This document shows positions 17,465 to 25,087 of a stretch of DNA of 35,172 nt, one piece after another; position 1 is the stretch's first letter; the number at the start of each line of letters is the position of its first letter. The stretch covers positions 1 through 35,172 of the forward strand of contig JAUNPN010000017.1 of the NCBI GenBank assembly GCA_030536655.1. Direction: 5' to 3'. The stretch comes from a bacterium. GTDB lineage: Bacteria > Bacillota > Clostridia > UBA1381. The notes beneath the pieces were generated by a model. The model saw only the letters and a list, made by a program, of their open reading frames with translations, was not told where the DNA came from and searched no databases. Both the position numbers and the translations under genes were made by a program.

Positions 17465-20400
17465 CTATTTCGACGATTCTGCAAGTGGTGTCATATCGTT
17501 TAAGCTGTTCCACAGCATTGCGCGAACCATACCGCTTGACAAATCCAGATTGTCAAACACCACCGTTTCGGCAAAATTCTTTGTATACATATTTTTCAAA
17601 CTACCGTCACTGTCATATATTGCAAGAATTACAATCCCATTGCTCACTTCGTCGCAGTTAAGCGCATTAACCATTAAGCTTGTGTCCGAATTGTATTTAA
17701 TCGTCAGCATTTGACAAGCTTTGATGGTTGCTGTAATATTCACGTCATATTCCGGTATACGGATTGTCGTTGTGGCGTTTGACGCATCGGCAAAAATGTC
17801 CTCGCTCGCGTCTGAAGTCCATCTGACAAATTTATAGCCATCGGGTACATAGGCTGTAATCTCTGCATTCTCACCGTTACTCAGTTCTGATGAAACCGAC
17901 AGGTCTGAGGTAAAATATCCATTTATAATTGTCGCTTTACAGGTTTTTTCTTCTGAAGCAAGAGAGTCATAATCAGGATAAATGTTTTCCTCTCCATCTG
18001 CCAGAAGGATATATGCGTCCTCCTCCAAAATTGTACCGTTTTCATATGACGTATAGGACAATCCATCCGTGAGCGGAATACCGTAAAAATATACAAATCT
18101 TTTTTCACTGCCGGAATCATACTCAGTAACCTTTATATCCATTGCCCCTGTGTCATTTCCCATATAAACGACCGTATATTCATCGCCGTACATATATATG
18201 CTTTTACTGTCACCGTCAACTCCTATCGTGATATTTGCTCCGTCGATACAGTACGGAATATTGTTTTCAATGTAACCGACCACACTGCCGTTTTTGTTGA
18301 GCACATATACGTCAACAGGGCAATTTATATTCAGAACTTTTTGCAGTTCATTTACCGGCATATCAAGCAGAGATGAATATTCATCGTATTTGTCGGGATA
18401 GTCTGTTTCAAGAGAATAAATCCAGTTTGTAAGTACGCTTTTATGCATGCCATTGTAACCGCCCCGAATAGATTCTACCTTCTCTTTCCATTCATCAATG
18501 CTTGTATCACCGAATGCATTCAATATTTTCTGCGCCCATGCATCGTTTACGGTGTCGGCATATTTTACAGCGTAATCACAGTCGGTATCAAGCATATTAT
18601 ACATCACGTCGATCACGCTGTTGTATACCAAAGCTGTTTCTTCCGTATCGGCTGAGATAAAATAACGCTTTTTATTGCTGTAAACCGTCTTTATCAAATC
18701 CCATGTTTCCATAAGCGCGGCTATTTTACAATATTGTTCCTCTATATCGTCTGCGTTAAACAATGTATTTGCAACGGTTTTGCCGGCAATATATGCCGCT
18801 TGGAATGTAAACGCCGCAGGGTGCGAAGCACAGAACGCTGTTTTTACATCGCCCCAGAATTTATCTATGCAGTATTGCGCTATGTCCCTGCCAACGACGC
18901 TTACGGCATACGCCGCCATTTCTGCCCGGAAAGCGGATTGACTTGAGTTCATAACCGAAATACAGTCATTAAGCGCCGCTTTCAGAGCTATATTATCGTT
19001 CGGGCAAACGGCATACATATTATACATGATATTTTTCATTGAACCGCTGAGCTGATTTATATTATAATACGCTGCGGCATTTTCGCAAAGCGTCTTGAAA
19101 TCTCCCACATAGCCTATCGCATCGCCGACATAGCCTGTTATTTTGGAAACCGATGCAATATCAGGGTGCATTTGCTTAAACTCATCTTCGAAAATTTCGC
19201 ACAGTTTGCTTTTTTGCAAGTCCGTCATATTGTTGAAATCATATGTATTGTACATGTCGATATTGTAAAGCGTTTGCATCTCCTTTGCAGCGGTACTTAA
19301 TAATTTATTGGTTTGTTTCGTAATCTCGCTCGTCATAAGGCTTGTAACCTCAAGATCTACCGAGCTTTCAAACATACTCATAATTATGGCTGAATATATG
19401 TCCTTTTCCTCAAAGGTATAATCCAAAAGGCTTGACGGACTGTCAACCTTGTCCATTGTGTCCATAAATGCCGACCATGCCGCAGCAGCACTTTCAAGAC
19501 CGTTTTCCTTTCCTGTTTTGTATATAACGCCGCTTGGGGTATCACCGGAAAATTCCGCTTCCATCGTTTCGCCTGTCGGATCGTAAAGTAAAAATTCCGC
19601 ACGGTATTTGTTCAGTTCAAAATTATATGCTGATACGCTGAATTTATGGATATACTTCTTTGCCGCTGCATTATCCGCTGTCACACGTATCGTTAGCTCC
19701 GCTTCACCCGTCGGAGGATTGTCGAGATATACGGTTTCGCTTATATGTCTTGCAGCGGATAGTGTGTCAAAAGTGTATCTTCTGGAGCGTACCGGGGAGT
19801 TTTCATAAAAGCTGAAGCCCTTGGGCAGAGTAACCGTCATATCTGCATTTCTCATAGTATGGTCAGCCGAATAATCATCACCGAGATACAAGCCGTATAC
19901 GGATATATCGAGACTAAAACTGTCATCATTGTAGCTGTCCTTGTCCGCGTCATACACAATATCCTGACCGCCGTTTGCATATATGTAAATTACGTTGTCG
20001 GTCTGAGAGACAGTACTGACAGGCGTATTTGTTGCTGTGCAGTTATAGTGCCATTCGACAGAAGCATAATAAAAAATGCCTTCGATCGCAATATATCGTT
20101 CATCCTTACTGCCTTCATATAATATGTCTATCGTGTTGCCGCAGCCTTGAAATGCTCGAGAATCACCAAATGATATTCTTGACTTCGGTATTGTTATATT
20201 TTTCAGACTCGTACACTGCGAAAAAGCATAATCCAAAATACGCAGTCCGGAAGCGCCGGGAGCAAAAGTTAAGCTTTCAAGTTCGGTACAGCCGGAAAAC
20301 GCGTAGCTGCCTATTTCAGTAACATTACCGGGTATGATTATATTTGTAAGACCACTATCTGCAAATGCATAATTGCCTATACTTATAATGCTGTTCGGCA

Positions 20401-21469
20401 AATTTATATTTTCCAATGCATCACAGCCGCTAAAAGCCCGTATTCCAATGCTTGTCACACTGTCCGGAATAGCTATGTCCGACAATTCGGTACAGCCGCA
20501 AAATGCGTAATCTCCTATAGTTGTTACTCCATAAGGAACAACTACAGACTTAACACATTCCAGACCATAAAATGCATAATCTCTTATTTTTTCAACTCCA
20601 TCTGGGATAACGATGTTTTCAGCAAGTTCGTTATTTATATATAAATTTTTTGCATAATAAAGCGGATTGGAGGAATAATCGGGTATGTCTATGTTGAGAT
20701 ATGCATCTAAATCTGTTATATATACGTCTGTTAACGCTTCACAAGATCTGAACGCGCCTTCTCCAAGGCTTGTCACACTGCCCGGAATATCTATACTTAC
20801 CAGGCTGCTGCAACCACTAAATGCATAATCTCCTATATTTTCCAGGCTGCTACTGTCCGAAAAAGTATAATCATCGCCGATTTTTTGTTCTCCGTCTTTT
20901 ATTCTCACGCTTGTCAAGTTGGTACAATAAGCGAACGCACTGCTGCCAATGCTCGTTACACCAATACCAATCTTTACATTTTCTAACGCAGTGCAGGATT
21001 GAAACGCCTCGTAGCCAATATATCCCACGCTGTCAGGTATGTTTATATTTGTAAGGCTTGTGCAAAAATAAAACGCACAATCTCCAATGCTTATGACGCT
21101 ATTACCGATTGTTGTATTTGTCAGACCGGTGCAGCTTCTAAACGCCGCGTAGCCAATGCTTGTCACATCATTGCCGATAGTTACACTTTTTAAGTCTGAG
21201 TGACCGTTAAACGCATAATTGCCAATGCTTGTTACGCCATTGTCAATGACAACACTTGTAATACTTTTACTATACCATGCCCATGGACCTCCCCCGCTGG
21301 TGAAATCCGTCATCTCTCCCGTACCGCTTACGGTGAGCGTGCCGTCATCGTCAAGCGTCCACGTTAGATTATCGCCGCACGTGCCGCTTGTATCCGCACT
21401 TGCAATCACAGGCATAAACGCGCACAACATTGCTATAGCCAAAAGCAAGCTCAAAGTCCTCTTTTTCAT
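17465..21469 (-). CDS. Large secreted BspA-like leucine-rich-repeat protein
   Basis: A predicted 1334-residue exported protein. A signal peptide (1-25, cut near ASA/DT) precedes a CGDNLTWTLDDDGTLTVSGTG module typical of BspA-like proteins, then about 13 LRR_5 repeats of roughly 23 residues (about 65-455; consensus SIG-YAF-GCT-L--I-IP--V). A beta-rich segment follows (about 490-640), then a long helical region with no family I recognise (about 660-1010), a beta-rich part, an InlB-B-like repeat (GYKFVRWTSDASED, about 1220) and a C-terminal module ending GMVRAMLWNSLNDMTPL, seen in other clostridial secreted proteins. No LPXTG, SLH or transmembrane anchor is evident. The start is placed at MKKRT because of a GGGGGAG ribosome site; an upstream ATG at 21523 lies inside a leader hairpin. 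Adhesion or glycan binding is inferred. Confidence 0.88.
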   Translation of the reverse strand: MKKRTLSLLLAIAMLCAFMPVIASADTSGTCGDNLTWTLDDDGTLTVSGTGEMTDFTSGGGPWAWYSKSITSVVIDNGVTSIGNYAFNGHSDLKSVTIGNDVTSIGYAAFRSCTGLTNTTIGNSVISIGDCAFYFCTSLTNINIPDSVGYIGYEAFQSCTALENVKIGIGVTSIGSSAFAYCTNLTSVRIKDGEQKIGDDYTFSDSSSLENIGDYAFSGCSSLVSIDIPGSVTSLGEGAFRSCEALTDVYITDLDAYLNIDIPDYSSNPLYYAKNLYINNELAENIVIPDGVEKIRDYAFYGLECVKSVVVPYGVTTIGDYAFCGCTELSDIAIPDSVTSIGIRAFSGCDALENINLPNSIISIGNYAFADSGLTNIIIPGNVTEIGSYAFSGCTELESLTFAPGASGLRILDYAFSQCTSLKNITIPKSRISFGDSRAFQGCGNTIDILYEGSKDERYIAIEGIFYYASVEWHYNCTATNTPVSTVSQTDNVIYIYANGGQDIVYDADKDSYNDDSFSLDISVYGLYLGDDYSADHTMRNADMTVTLPKGFSFYENSPVRSRRYTFDTLSAARHISETVYLDNPPTGEAELTIRVTADNAAAKKYIHKFSVSAYNFELNKYRAEFLLYDPTGETMEAEFSGDTPSGVIYKTGKENGLESAAAAWSAFMDTMDKVDSPSSLLDYTFEEKDIYSAIIMSMFESSVDLEVTSLMTSEITKQTNKLLSTAAKEMQTLYNIDMYNTYDFNNMTDLQKSKLCEIFEDEFKQMHPDIASVSKITGYVGDAIGYVGDFKTLCENAAAYYNINQLSGSMKNIMYNMYAVCPNDNIALKAALNDCISVMNSSQSAFRAEMAAYAVSVVGRDIAQYCIDKFWGDVKTAFCASHPAAFTFQAAYIAGKTVANTLFNADDIEEQYCKIAALMETWDLIKTVYSNKKRYFISADTEETALVYNSVIDVMYNMLDTDCDYAVKYADTVNDAWAQKILNAFGDTSIDEWKEKVESIRGGYNGMHKSVLTNWIYSLETDYPDKYDEYSSLLDMPVNELQKVLNINCPVDVYVLNKNGSVVGYIENNIPYCIDGANITIGVDGDSKSIYMYGDEYTVVYMGNDTGAMDIKVTEYDSGSEKRFVYFYGIPLTDGLSYTSYENGTILEEDAYILLADGEENIYPDYDSLASEEKTCKATIINGYFTSDLSVSSELSNGENAEITAYVPDGYKFVRWTSDASEDIFADASNATTTIRIPEYDVNITATIKACQMLTIKYNSDTSLMVNALNCDEVSNGIVILAIYDSDGSLKNMYTKNFAETVVFDNLDLSSGMVRAMLWNSLNDMTPLAESSK

Positions 21470-21490
21470 AGTGTTCTCCCCCCTATAAAT

Positions 21491-21523
21491 AAAAAATGCG
21501 CAGCCGCTTGCACGACTACGCAC
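21491..21523 (-). terminator. Attenuator-like hairpin before the BspA-like start
   Basis: On the minus strand an 11-bp stem with three G-U pairs (21523-21513 with 21506-21496) and a 6-nt loop is followed by a run of T bases, 22 bp before the start codon. A second T-run (21530-21525) follows a shorter GCAGC/GCTGC stem just upstream. Both lie between the promoter and the gene, so premature termination is a likely form of control. Confidence 0.55.
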
Positions 21524-21957: not shown

Positions 21958-23334
21958 TTATTTTTTTCTTAGCATGGAAATCGTTTCGGCAAGTGTTTTG
22001 ACACCGAATGCGGCAAAGCCCTCCGGAACGCGTATTCCCTTTAGTGATTGCTTCGGAACAACCGCAGTTTTAAAGCCAAGCTTTGCTGCCTCGCTGAGCC
22101 GTTTCTCAAGCTGTGTCACCGCGCGCAGTTCACCTCCGAGTCCCACTTCTCCGATGAATATCATATCCGGCGGTATTGCCGTATCTGCCTGAGCTGTCGC
22201 AATTGCGGCACATATTCCAAGGTCAATCGCTGTTTCGTCAATGCGCAGTCCTCCCGCTACATTTACGTATACGTCAGAATTTGACAGGTTCATTCGCGCA
22301 CGCTTTTCAAGCACCGCGATAAGCAGCAGCATTCTGTTGAAGTCAATTCCGGAACTCATACGGCGTGGATTTCCGAAGCCGGTAGGAGTTACAAGCGCCT
22401 GGATTTCAGCCATGACGCCGCGTGAGCCTTCCATAGTACATACAATGCAGCTGCCTGAGGTATCTTCTCCTCTGCCCTCAAGGAGCATCATTGAGGGGTT
22501 TGCAACCTCTGCAAGCCCTTTGTCCTTCATTTCGAATACACCGATTTCGTTTGTGGAGCCAAAGCGGTTTTTTACTCCGCGCAGTATGCGGAAGGTCGTA
22601 TTTCTGTCACCTTCAAAGTAAAGTACACAGTCAACCATATGCTCCAGCACACGAGGACCTGCAAGCGCGCCGTCCTTGGTTACATGACCAACGATAAACA
22701 TTGCCGTACCCATTGATTTTGCGGTGCGCATGAACGCATTTGTTGCCTCTCTGACCTGCGGCACGCTGCCTGCCGCGGAGGCAATATCTTCACGGTGCAT
22801 TGTCTGTATTGAATCGATAATAACAATGTCCGGCTTTGCATCGGTTATTAATGAAATAATGGTTTCGGTGTCCGTTTCGGAAATGAGGTAGAGATTTTCC
22901 GAAGCAACGCCGAGGCGGTCTGCCCTCAGCTTGATCTGTCCCTCCGATTCCTCACCGCTGACATATAGTATTTTATGGTTTTGTCCGGCTGTTTCACATA
23001 TTTGAAGGAGCAGGGTGGATTTTCCTATACCGGGGTCTCCGCCGACAAGTATCAGGGAGCCTTGAACAATGCCGCCGCCGAGAACTCTGTCAAGCTCTGT
23101 CATTCCGGTTTTGTAACGTTTTTCATAGCCTATTTTAACATCGGAAATTTTCTGAGGCTCGCGTCTCAGACCGAGAGATGCCGGGGCGGATACAGCTGAA
23201 ACGGCGGAGCTTTTTTTCTCGGAAACGATGGTTTCCTGCATGGTGTTCCATCTGTTGCAGCCGGGGCATTTGCCAAGCCATTTAACGGAACGGTATCCGC
23301 ATTCCGAGCATATATATACTGATTTGGTTTTCAT
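21958..23334 (-). CDS. radA: DNA repair protein RadA
   Basis: A RecA-like ATPase and DNA helicase that processes branched recombination intermediates. All family parts are present in 458 residues: an N-terminal zinc finger (C9, C12, C23, C26), Walker A GGDPGIGKST at about 96-105, the RadA-specific KNRFGST motif at about 254-260, and a C-terminal Lon-like domain (about 285-458) with VNVAGGLRIDE and FIGEVGLGGELR. The gene has its own promoter and diverges from glyS across a region holding DnaA-box-like sites. Confidence 0.97.
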   Translation of the reverse strand: MKTKSVYICSECGYRSVKWLGKCPGCNRWNTMQETIVSEKKSSAVSAVSAPASLGLRREPQKISDVKIGYEKRYKTGMTELDRVLGGGIVQGSLILVGGDPGIGKSTLLLQICETAGQNHKILYVSGEESEGQIKLRADRLGVASENLYLISETDTETIISLITDAKPDIVIIDSIQTMHREDIASAAGSVPQVREATNAFMRTAKSMGTAMFIVGHVTKDGALAGPRVLEHMVDCVLYFEGDRNTTFRILRGVKNRFGSTNEIGVFEMKDKGLAEVANPSMMLLEGRGEDTSGSCIVCTMEGSRGVMAEIQALVTPTGFGNPRRMSSGIDFNRMLLLIAVLEKRARMNLSNSDVYVNVAGGLRIDETAIDLGICAAIATAQADTAIPPDMIFIGEVGLGGELRAVTQLEKRLSEAAKLGFKTAVVPKQSLKGIRVPEGFAAFGVKTLAETISMLRKK

Positions 23335-23363: not shown

Positions 23364-23392
23364 ATTTTATCATTATTACGCGGTTATGTCAA
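23364..23392 (-). promoter_or_regulatory. Predicted radA promoter
   Basis: Minus strand: TTGACA (23392-23387), 17-bp spacer, TAAAAT (23369-23364) with TGA before it. Near-consensus and extended; leader of about 25 nt. Confidence 0.72.
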
Positions 23393-23462: not shown

Positions 23463-23569
23463 TTATCCACGCACTTATTCACATTAAACGGCGGTAAAAA
23501 ATCCCTTTTTATCATAATTTTCAGAGTTATCCACACCGGAAGGAGAAAAAGTGAATAACTTTTTCCACG
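23463..23569. promoter_or_regulatory. Cluster of DnaA-box-like sites between radA and glyS
   Basis: Against the consensus TTATNCACA: TTATCCACG (23463-23471, one mismatch), TTATTCACA (23475-23483, match), TTATCCACA (23527-23535, match), TTATTCACT on the minus strand (23558-23550, one mismatch) and the weaker TTTTCCACG (23561-23569). The first two start 12 bp apart. The segment is AT-rich around the boxes. No dnaA or dnaN gene is in the window. Confidence 0.65.
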
Positions 23570-23618
23570 GTGCGAATCGAATTATGTAAATTATTGCGGA
23601 AAAAATTTTTCAAATCAC

Positions 23619-23695: not shown

Positions 23696-25087
23696 ATGAG
23701 AAATGAAGATAAGACAATGGACAAAATTGTAGCCCTCTGTAAGGGCAGAGGTTATGTTTTCGCCGGAAGTGAAATATACGGCGGTCTTGCAAATACATGG
23801 GATTACGGTCCTCTCGGTGTTGAGTTTAAGAACAATGTCAAGAAAGCATGGTGGAAAAAGTTTATTCAGGAATCAAAGTACAATGTGGGTATAGACTGCG
23901 CCATCCTCATGAACCCGGAAACATGGGTTGCATCGGGTCACGTAGGAAGCTTCTCAGACCCGTTAATGGACTGTAAGGAGTGTCATGCGCGTCACAGAGC
24001 CGATAAGCTTATTGAGGACTACGCTCATGAGAATAATGAGGATATAGTCGTTGACGGTTGGTCAAAGGATCAGATGGAAAGCTACATCAAGGATAACAAC
24101 ATTGTATGCCCGAAGTGCGGAAAGCAGAATTTTACTGAAATCAGAGAATTTAACCTTATGTTCAAGACTTTCCAGGGTGTAACGGAGGATAGCTCATCAA
24201 CAGTATATCTTCGTCCGGAAACTGCTCAGGGTATATTTGTAAACTTCAAAAATGTACAGCGTTCGTCAAGAAAAAAAGTTCCGTTCGGTATCGGTCAGGT
24301 TGGAAAATCATTCAGAAATGAGATTACGCCGGGAAACTTTACCTTCAGAACACGTGAGTTTGAGCAGATGGAACTTGAGTTCTTCTGCAAGCCGGGTACA
24401 GACCTTGAATGGCACGCTTACTGGAAGAAATATTGTATGGACTTCCTCTTAAGTCTCGGTATGAAAGAGGAAAATCTTCGTTTCAGAGATCATTCACCGG
24501 AGGAGCTTGCATTCTATTCAAATGCAACGGCAGATATAGAGTTTATGTTCCCGTTCGGCTGGGGTGAGCTTTGGGGTATCGCTGACAGAACGGATTACGA
24601 CTTAAAGCAGCATATGGATCACAGCGGTACAAGCATGGAATATCAGGATCCTATTACAAATGAGAAGTATGTTCCGTATTGTATCGAGCCTTCGCTCGGA
24701 GCAGACAGAGTTGCGCTTGCATTCTTAATCGAGGCATATGATGAGGAAACCTTGGATAACGGTGACAGCAGAGTTGTTCTTCATCTTCATCCGGCTCTTG
24801 CGCCGGTTAAGGCGGCGGTTCTTCCGCTTTCGAAAAAGCTTAATGATAAGGCTTCCGAAGTATATGAAATGCTTTCAAAGAAATATAACTGTGAGTATGA
24901 CGACGCCGGTTCAATCGGTAAGCGTTACCGCAGACAGGATGAAATCGGCACGCCGTTCTGTATCACATATGATTTCGATTCGGTTGAGGACAATGCTGTA
25001 ACAGTGCGTTTCAGAGATTCTATGGATCAGGAGAGAGTCGCGATAGATAAGCTTGATGAATTTCTTGCAGGTAAGCTTGAATTCTAA
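23696..25087 (+). CDS. glyS: Glycyl-tRNA synthetase, alpha2 type
   Basis: Charges tRNA-Gly; class II dimeric enzyme of the archaeal/eukaryotic-like bacterial type, distinct from the alpha2beta2 GlyQS form. The 463 residues include the N-terminal [19 protein letters not shown] segment (about 28-46), zinc-ligand pairs CKEC (about 92-95) and CPKC (about 139-142), motif 2 [28 protein letters not shown], motif 3 [13 protein letters not shown], and a C-terminal anticodon-binding domain (about 360-463). A GGAG ribosome site 10 nt upstream fixes the start. The TAA stop is itself the first three bases of a mobile palindromic element. Confidence 0.97.

Follow-up and report, generated by a model that had tools for sequence, protein, structure and literature searches.

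The intergenic region that separates the divergent genes radA (minus strand) and glyS (plus strand) carries a dense cluster of DnaA boxes, which, by analogy with the DnaA-box clusters known from other bacteria, is probably a chromosomal DnaA-binding control site outside the replication origin (oriC). This array of up to five boxes, which lies between radA and glyS or next to one of them, is conserved in relatives. A related array lies between serS and trmK, near oriC, and a motif resembling one arm of the dif site recurs next to both arrays in relatives. The best reading of the relatives' sequences is that a predicted Xer-type half-site has been added there to a non-oriC DnaA-control site. These observations bear on how bacteria that lack Hda, SeqA, IHF, datA or DARS time their replication, and, in little-studied gut Clostridia, a module that changes neighbours yet keeps its form is a concrete candidate for a control site.

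The DnaA-box array between radA and glyS

The window, meaning the whole stretch of DNA analysed, is a 35,172-nt contig (C220) from a 3.49-Mb draft genome of 266 contigs (G000). A scan with the consensus TTATNCACA identified five DnaA boxes at positions 23463-23569: two perfect, two with a single mismatch and a weaker one. The features of the region are:

21958-23334, minus strand: radA, 458 aa; a neighbour, outside the element
23364-23392, minus strand: radA promoter-like site, TTGACA-17-TAAAAT
23463-23471, plus strand: DnaA box 1, TTATCCACG, one mismatch; an aligned box in relatives
23475-23483, plus strand: DnaA box 2, TTATTCACA, perfect; 12 bp after box 1
23527-23535, plus strand: DnaA box 3, TTATCCACA, perfect; 52 bp after box 2
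23550-23558, minus strand: DnaA box 4, inverted, TTATTCACT, one mismatch
23561-23569, plus strand: weak DnaA box 5, TTTTCCACG, two mismatches
23582-23591, minus strand: imperfect dif-arm-like motif, ATTTACATAA (plus strand TTATGTAAAT), one mismatch to GTTTACATAA
23619-23648, plus strand: glyS promoter-like site, TTGACA-18-TAAAAT; TTGACAAA conserved in the alignment of relatives
23696-25087, plus strand: glyS, glycyl-tRNA synthetase, 463 aa; a neighbour, outside the element

The position of box 5 aligns with better boxes in some relatives, for example TTATTCACA in L008. The cluster ends 50 bp from the -35 element of glyS and starts 71 bp from that of radA, the promoter-like sites themselves being no more frequent than in shuffles (2 seen, 2.8 expected). 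The dnaA gene of G000 is found with dnaN on a separate contig, C142.

Boxes were not in excess over the window as a whole (44 allowing one mismatch, versus 41.3 +/- 6.9 in shuffles), so that only the local clustering is unusual. As many as four boxes in 107 bp, the maximum of the window, arose in 1 of 200 simulated windows, in 3 of 5000 simulated intergenic regions, all generated by a first-order Markov process with the same dinucleotides, and in none of 17 stretches (303 kb) from three relatives, where the maximum was three. Two perfect boxes in direct orientation, separated by 3-60 bp, were found at two sites in G000, the glyS-radA cluster and contig C239; this pattern does not catch the pair beside dnaA, whose gap is 2. 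An initial annotation, made from the window's sequence, had described two perfect boxes, two with one mismatch and a weaker site within 107 bp, the first two starting 12 bp apart, at a density beyond chance, near the promoters of glyS and radA and with no dnaA at the cluster. The box scan, the simulations and the location of dnaA bore out this description.

A lack of conserved boxes upstream of glyS or radA in close relatives had been named beforehand as evidence against the initial annotation, and the family genomes did not show such a lack. The glyS gene was matched in 56 of 61 family genomes, and its upstream region was readable in 50. At least three boxes were found in the 170 bp upstream of glyS in 24 of these 50 genomes, and at least four in 19, whereas none of the control promoters had three (0/28 upstream of dnaA and 0/30 upstream of the DUF6873 gene). 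Upstream of radA, at least three boxes were present at 15 of 28 loci, partly in the same intergenic regions as the glyS count. The order and spacings of the boxes recur among 30 loci, with a spacing of 12 in six loci, 52 in four and 53 in four. Searched for the pair pattern TTATNCACR-N3-60-TTATNCACR, 37 family genomes yielded 128 matches (0-11 each, with zero in five family genomes), compared to 23 (0-4 each) for the reversed control. Among 80 wider clostridial glyS loci, of which 78 were scored (two had too little upstream DNA), the cluster was clear only in L037 and weak in L059, and the nearest named genus by GlyS, Candidatus Ornithomonoglobus (L038, 83%), had no boxes upstream of glyS.

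In five family genomes of genus g14 (L009-L013), between zero and two of the aligned boxes upstream of glyS are still recognisable, the others being degenerate. The aligned boxes of these loci are mostly TTATCCCC- or TTATCCGC-like, and G056 and G048, both of this genus, have 48-53% GC where sampled, as if their DnaA tolerated G-richer boxes or the site were decaying.

A structured RNA such as a T-box was rejected, as an Rfam scan of the window returned no family at gathering score. Adjoining radA, the window encodes a 1352-aa protein (17465-21523, minus strand) with BspA-type leucine-rich repeats and an InlB B-repeat-like domain. A terminator-like hairpin with a T-rich tail (23734-23751, plus strand; 1 versus 0.1 in shuffles) lies within the start of glyS, and could be a chance structure or could reflect attenuation.

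A second motif beside the boxes and its match to dif

The motif GTTTACATAA first became visible beside the boxes in the alignment of relatives. Around 28 representative clusters, one per genus and site and chosen by us from the fetched loci, it was the commonest exact 10-mer without having been preselected (20/28), occurring at 9 of 14 clusters at glyS/radA and at 11 of 14 near oriC (trmK). With one mismatch allowed, it was found at 26 of the 28 clusters, and its one-base shift, TTTACATAAT, at 27. Permuted motifs averaged 1.8 of 28, and the top-scoring permuted motifs (23) were shifts of the same motif. Matches with at most one mismatch numbered 133 in 37.8 kb near clusters, versus 50 in 336.6 kb elsewhere; AT-rich intergenic DNA may explain part of this contrast, which the permutation control addresses. 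In G000, the motif is exact at the serS cluster and has one mismatch at the glyS-radA cluster (g1), which is thus outside the 20 of 28. No such association was seen when 12 other named genomes were searched: 10 had matches, and the 30 loci read contained 4 copies of the motif in 12.8 kb near clusters versus 11 in 78.0 kb elsewhere, those four being two places counted twice, in Blautia sp. MSJ-9 (L339/L349, one mismatch) and Ructibacterium gallinarum (L341/L351, exact).

The B. subtilis dif site is given as ACTTCCTAGAATATATATTATGTAAACT (PMC3025954), and GTTTACATAA is identical to its right arm. Since the right half-site is reported to be preferred by RipX, the XerD homologue (PMC5357621), the cluster motif equals the XerD-side arm of dif.

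A complete site of this kind may exist elsewhere on the family's chromosomes. An inverted repeat, GTTTAC(C)ATAA-N5/6-TTATGTAAAC, of which GTTTACATAA is one arm, lies just upstream of the DUF6873 gene (PF21778). It was found with at most four mismatches at 20 of 30 DUF6873 loci (L284-L313), perfect in 10, and control stretches showed 5-10 mismatches; six of the 30 loci belong to genomes (G003, G013, G018, G023, G026 and G032) in which the repeat had been noticed beforehand. The remaining 10 loci lack the repeat, including that of G000 (L312, best 7 mismatches), a genome in which neither the pattern scan nor the DUF6873 locus yielded a dif-like repeat. At L279 and L281, the repeat follows a ligA-like gene, with BRCT and HHH domains in L281. 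GC skew changes from positive to negative at the DUF6873 gene in all six genomes sampled (G002, G054, G056, G042, G009 and G013), the first 5 kb beyond the gene still having positive skew in G013. Four of the six (G054, G056, G042 and G013) carry the repeat, and none was found at the skew switch of G002. DUF6873 thus looks like a terminus-linked gene, and the repeat beside it is best read as dif, because it has a pair of arms around a 5-6 bp centre and sits at the predicted terminus.

Genome scans for dif-like patterns were not clearly above reversed controls (13 versus 9 in one scan), and only perfect inverted repeats stood out. One of four perfect repeats, GTTTACATAA-N5-TTATGTAAAC in G036 (contig C47; L274:1501-1525), is not beside DUF6873 but next to a gene that is presumably dnaX-like, as judged from its reading frame, and is either a moved dif or another use of the site. 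A fixed place of the glyS cluster near the terminus was rejected: the cluster lies 82 kb from the skew switch in G002, but in G054 the terminus contig, which reaches 179 kb to one side of the DUF6873 gene and 395 kb to the other, contains no glyS.

A somewhat doubtful alternative is that the dif-arm-like motif is a further degenerate DnaA box and the element a plain DnaA array. The stretch TTATGTAAA is two mismatches from TTATNCACA, and the motif disappears when boxes with two mismatches are masked. Against this, the conserved sequence is longer than the nonamer that resembles a box: it reaches to GGTTTACATAAT, which, allowing one mismatch, is the commonest 12-mer (21/28), and this stretch is also found in the dif-like repeats, as AGGTTTACATAAT in L288-L291, L293, L299, L307 and L309.

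Candidate control of DnaA and relation to neighbouring genes

Binding of DnaA to the array is expected from the sequence of the boxes. By analogy with the B. subtilis clusters and with datA, we infer that DnaA assembled on the array would there be titrated (held) or converted, and that withdrawing or converting a share of the cell's DnaA in this way would tune the timing of oriC firing. Less surely, its identity with the dif arm suggests that GTTTACATAA is bound by XerD. A second protein, most simply a XerD-type recombinase, would then occupy the flanking motif and help build or time the DnaA complex, as IHF does at datA in E. coli. Any effects on the transcription of glyS or radA would be secondary.

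Several known systems offer points of comparison. B. subtilis, likewise a Gram-positive bacterium, has six DnaA-box clusters (DBCs) outside oriC, whose joint loss is reported to cause early initiation (PMC13220808, PMC5295017), and the present cluster, with several boxes clustered outside oriC, is of the same type. However, none of the clusters named in the cited account, where the strong DnaA regions outside oriC are sda/yqeG, ywlC, ywcI, yydA, gcp/ydiF and trmE, is at glyS or radA (PMC4447404), and the cited descriptions of the DBCs mention no dif-arm motif. The E. coli datA locus is similar in layout, having five DnaA boxes away from oriC together with a site for a second protein (PMC5295017), but there the partner is IHF and no dif-arm motif is named in the cited description. 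DARS1 and DARS2 of E. coli also lie outside oriC, and act on the nucleotide state of DnaA (PMC13220808). The likeness is one of location, reactivation being a property that sequence does not reveal. According to the same review, it is unknown if regulators of the DnaA ATP/ADP balance exist in B. subtilis (PMC13220808). XerD of B. subtilis is reported to act on SMC in the terminus region, besides its role in recombination (Karaboja 2021, via PMC12322038); in the present case, the arm-like motif accompanies DnaA boxes.

A more far-reaching proposal, which we consider rather doubtful, is that both sites, the oriC-proximal one beside parAB and its counterpart at a different chromosomal location, are composite control sites made up of a DnaA array and a XerD half-dif, at which XerD would couple the state of the terminus (dimer resolution, SMC unloading) to the availability of DnaA. 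If XerD binds the flanking motif, proteins of initiation and of termination would meet on one DNA element, which hints at a so far unrecognised link between the start and the end of chromosome copying. A literature search, covering titles and the opening lines of abstracts, found no DnaA-box clusters with dif arms; an earlier description is possible.

The cluster could also serve local transcription control, with DnaA regulating glyS and/or radA from between their divergent promoters according to the state of replication. The short distances to both -35 elements, the position and direction relative to glyS, which are kept in many relatives, and the known activity of DnaA as a transcription factor (PMC4447404, PMC8203912) are consistent with such a role. 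Nevertheless, we regard it as unlikely to be the main one, because some genomes have the cluster without radA nearby and others have it without glyS. In G002, about 195 kb separate radA from glyS, and it is glyS that has the cluster; in G010, radA lies 6 kb from dnaA, while the glyS cluster is on a different contig. At eight loci (L018-L020, L024, L026, L028, L030 and L035), the glyS cluster is present with no radA match in the 1.5 kb upstream. Conversely, three boxes are lacking at 26 of the 50 glyS loci, and in at least 8 of these 26 genomes a cluster is instead found near radA: in G009, G026, G008, G028 and G001, up to about 700 bp away, and in G046, G049 and G057 (loci L137, L152, L156, L159, L163, L196, L205 and L206), with the cluster on the 3' side of radA in G008 and G028. 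In the other 18, of which a part was checked, no near-radA cluster was seen. Similar clusters stand beside quite different, unrelated genes in some family genomes, and also between serS and trmK near oriC.

Thus, among the roles offered by the initial annotation, DnaA control of radA or glyS is possible, but the cluster tracks no single gene. A titration or reactivation locus is the best-supported kind, as the cluster is conserved, is often kept when radA and glyS are apart and has a precedent in B. subtilis, although sequence cannot separate titration from reactivation. Against such a control site stand the 26 glyS loci short of three boxes, the degenerate boxes of the g14 genomes, the five genomes with no pair match, the scarcity of the cluster among the wider clostridial loci, the clusters beside unrelated genes and the mismatch in the motif at the G000 glyS-radA cluster. 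A chance cluster without function is very improbable: scanning many windows would yield some with four boxes at the simulated rate of 1 in 200, but chance would not account for conservation across genera and for the absence of such clusters from both sets of control promoters.

Location of the origin and the serS-trmK array

A displaced or second replication origin, the remaining suggestion of the initial annotation, is highly improbable; in its favour are dense boxes near AT-rich DNA and a single trio-like TACTACTA, 79 bp after the last box in G000. The dnaA-dnaN intergenic region on C142 carries boxes and TTATTACTATTATTATTATAAATTATATAATA, which we take to be a motif of the DnaA-trio or unwinding type, with four overlapping trio matches in G000. 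The trio pattern TAYTAYTA was found within 500 bp downstream of dnaA at 23 of 30 family loci, versus trio-like matches in the 300 bp upstream of glyS at 9 of 30, five of which, including that of the window, fall at -33 to -48, the position of the promoter. The two relatives sampled, G056 and G002, both show a change of GC skew from negative to positive at dnaA, in G056 to within about 20 kb. At glyS, skew was checked in G002, G000 being too fragmented; no such flip was found, and glyS lies at 311 kb, in an arm of mainly negative skew. The boxes, the trio and the skew flip therefore place oriC at dnaA-dnaN, and the glyS cluster is not the origin.

The second, denser array of G000, on contig C239 between serS and trmK (L036:905-1211), packs eleven boxes, each with no more than one mismatch, into about 300 bp. 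It lies near parB-parA, with one exact parS beside parA on C239; in the window, which contains the glyS cluster, no parS with three or fewer mismatches was found. In the ten genomes with both on one contig (G003, G005, G008, G010, G013, G018, G023, G025, G030 and G034), the trmK-side cluster lies about 1.3-31 kb from dnaA. The serS-trmK array is thus an oriC-proximal cluster that recurs in the family and, because none of the 28 regions upstream of dnaA contains three boxes, possibly the displaced second half of a bipartite origin.
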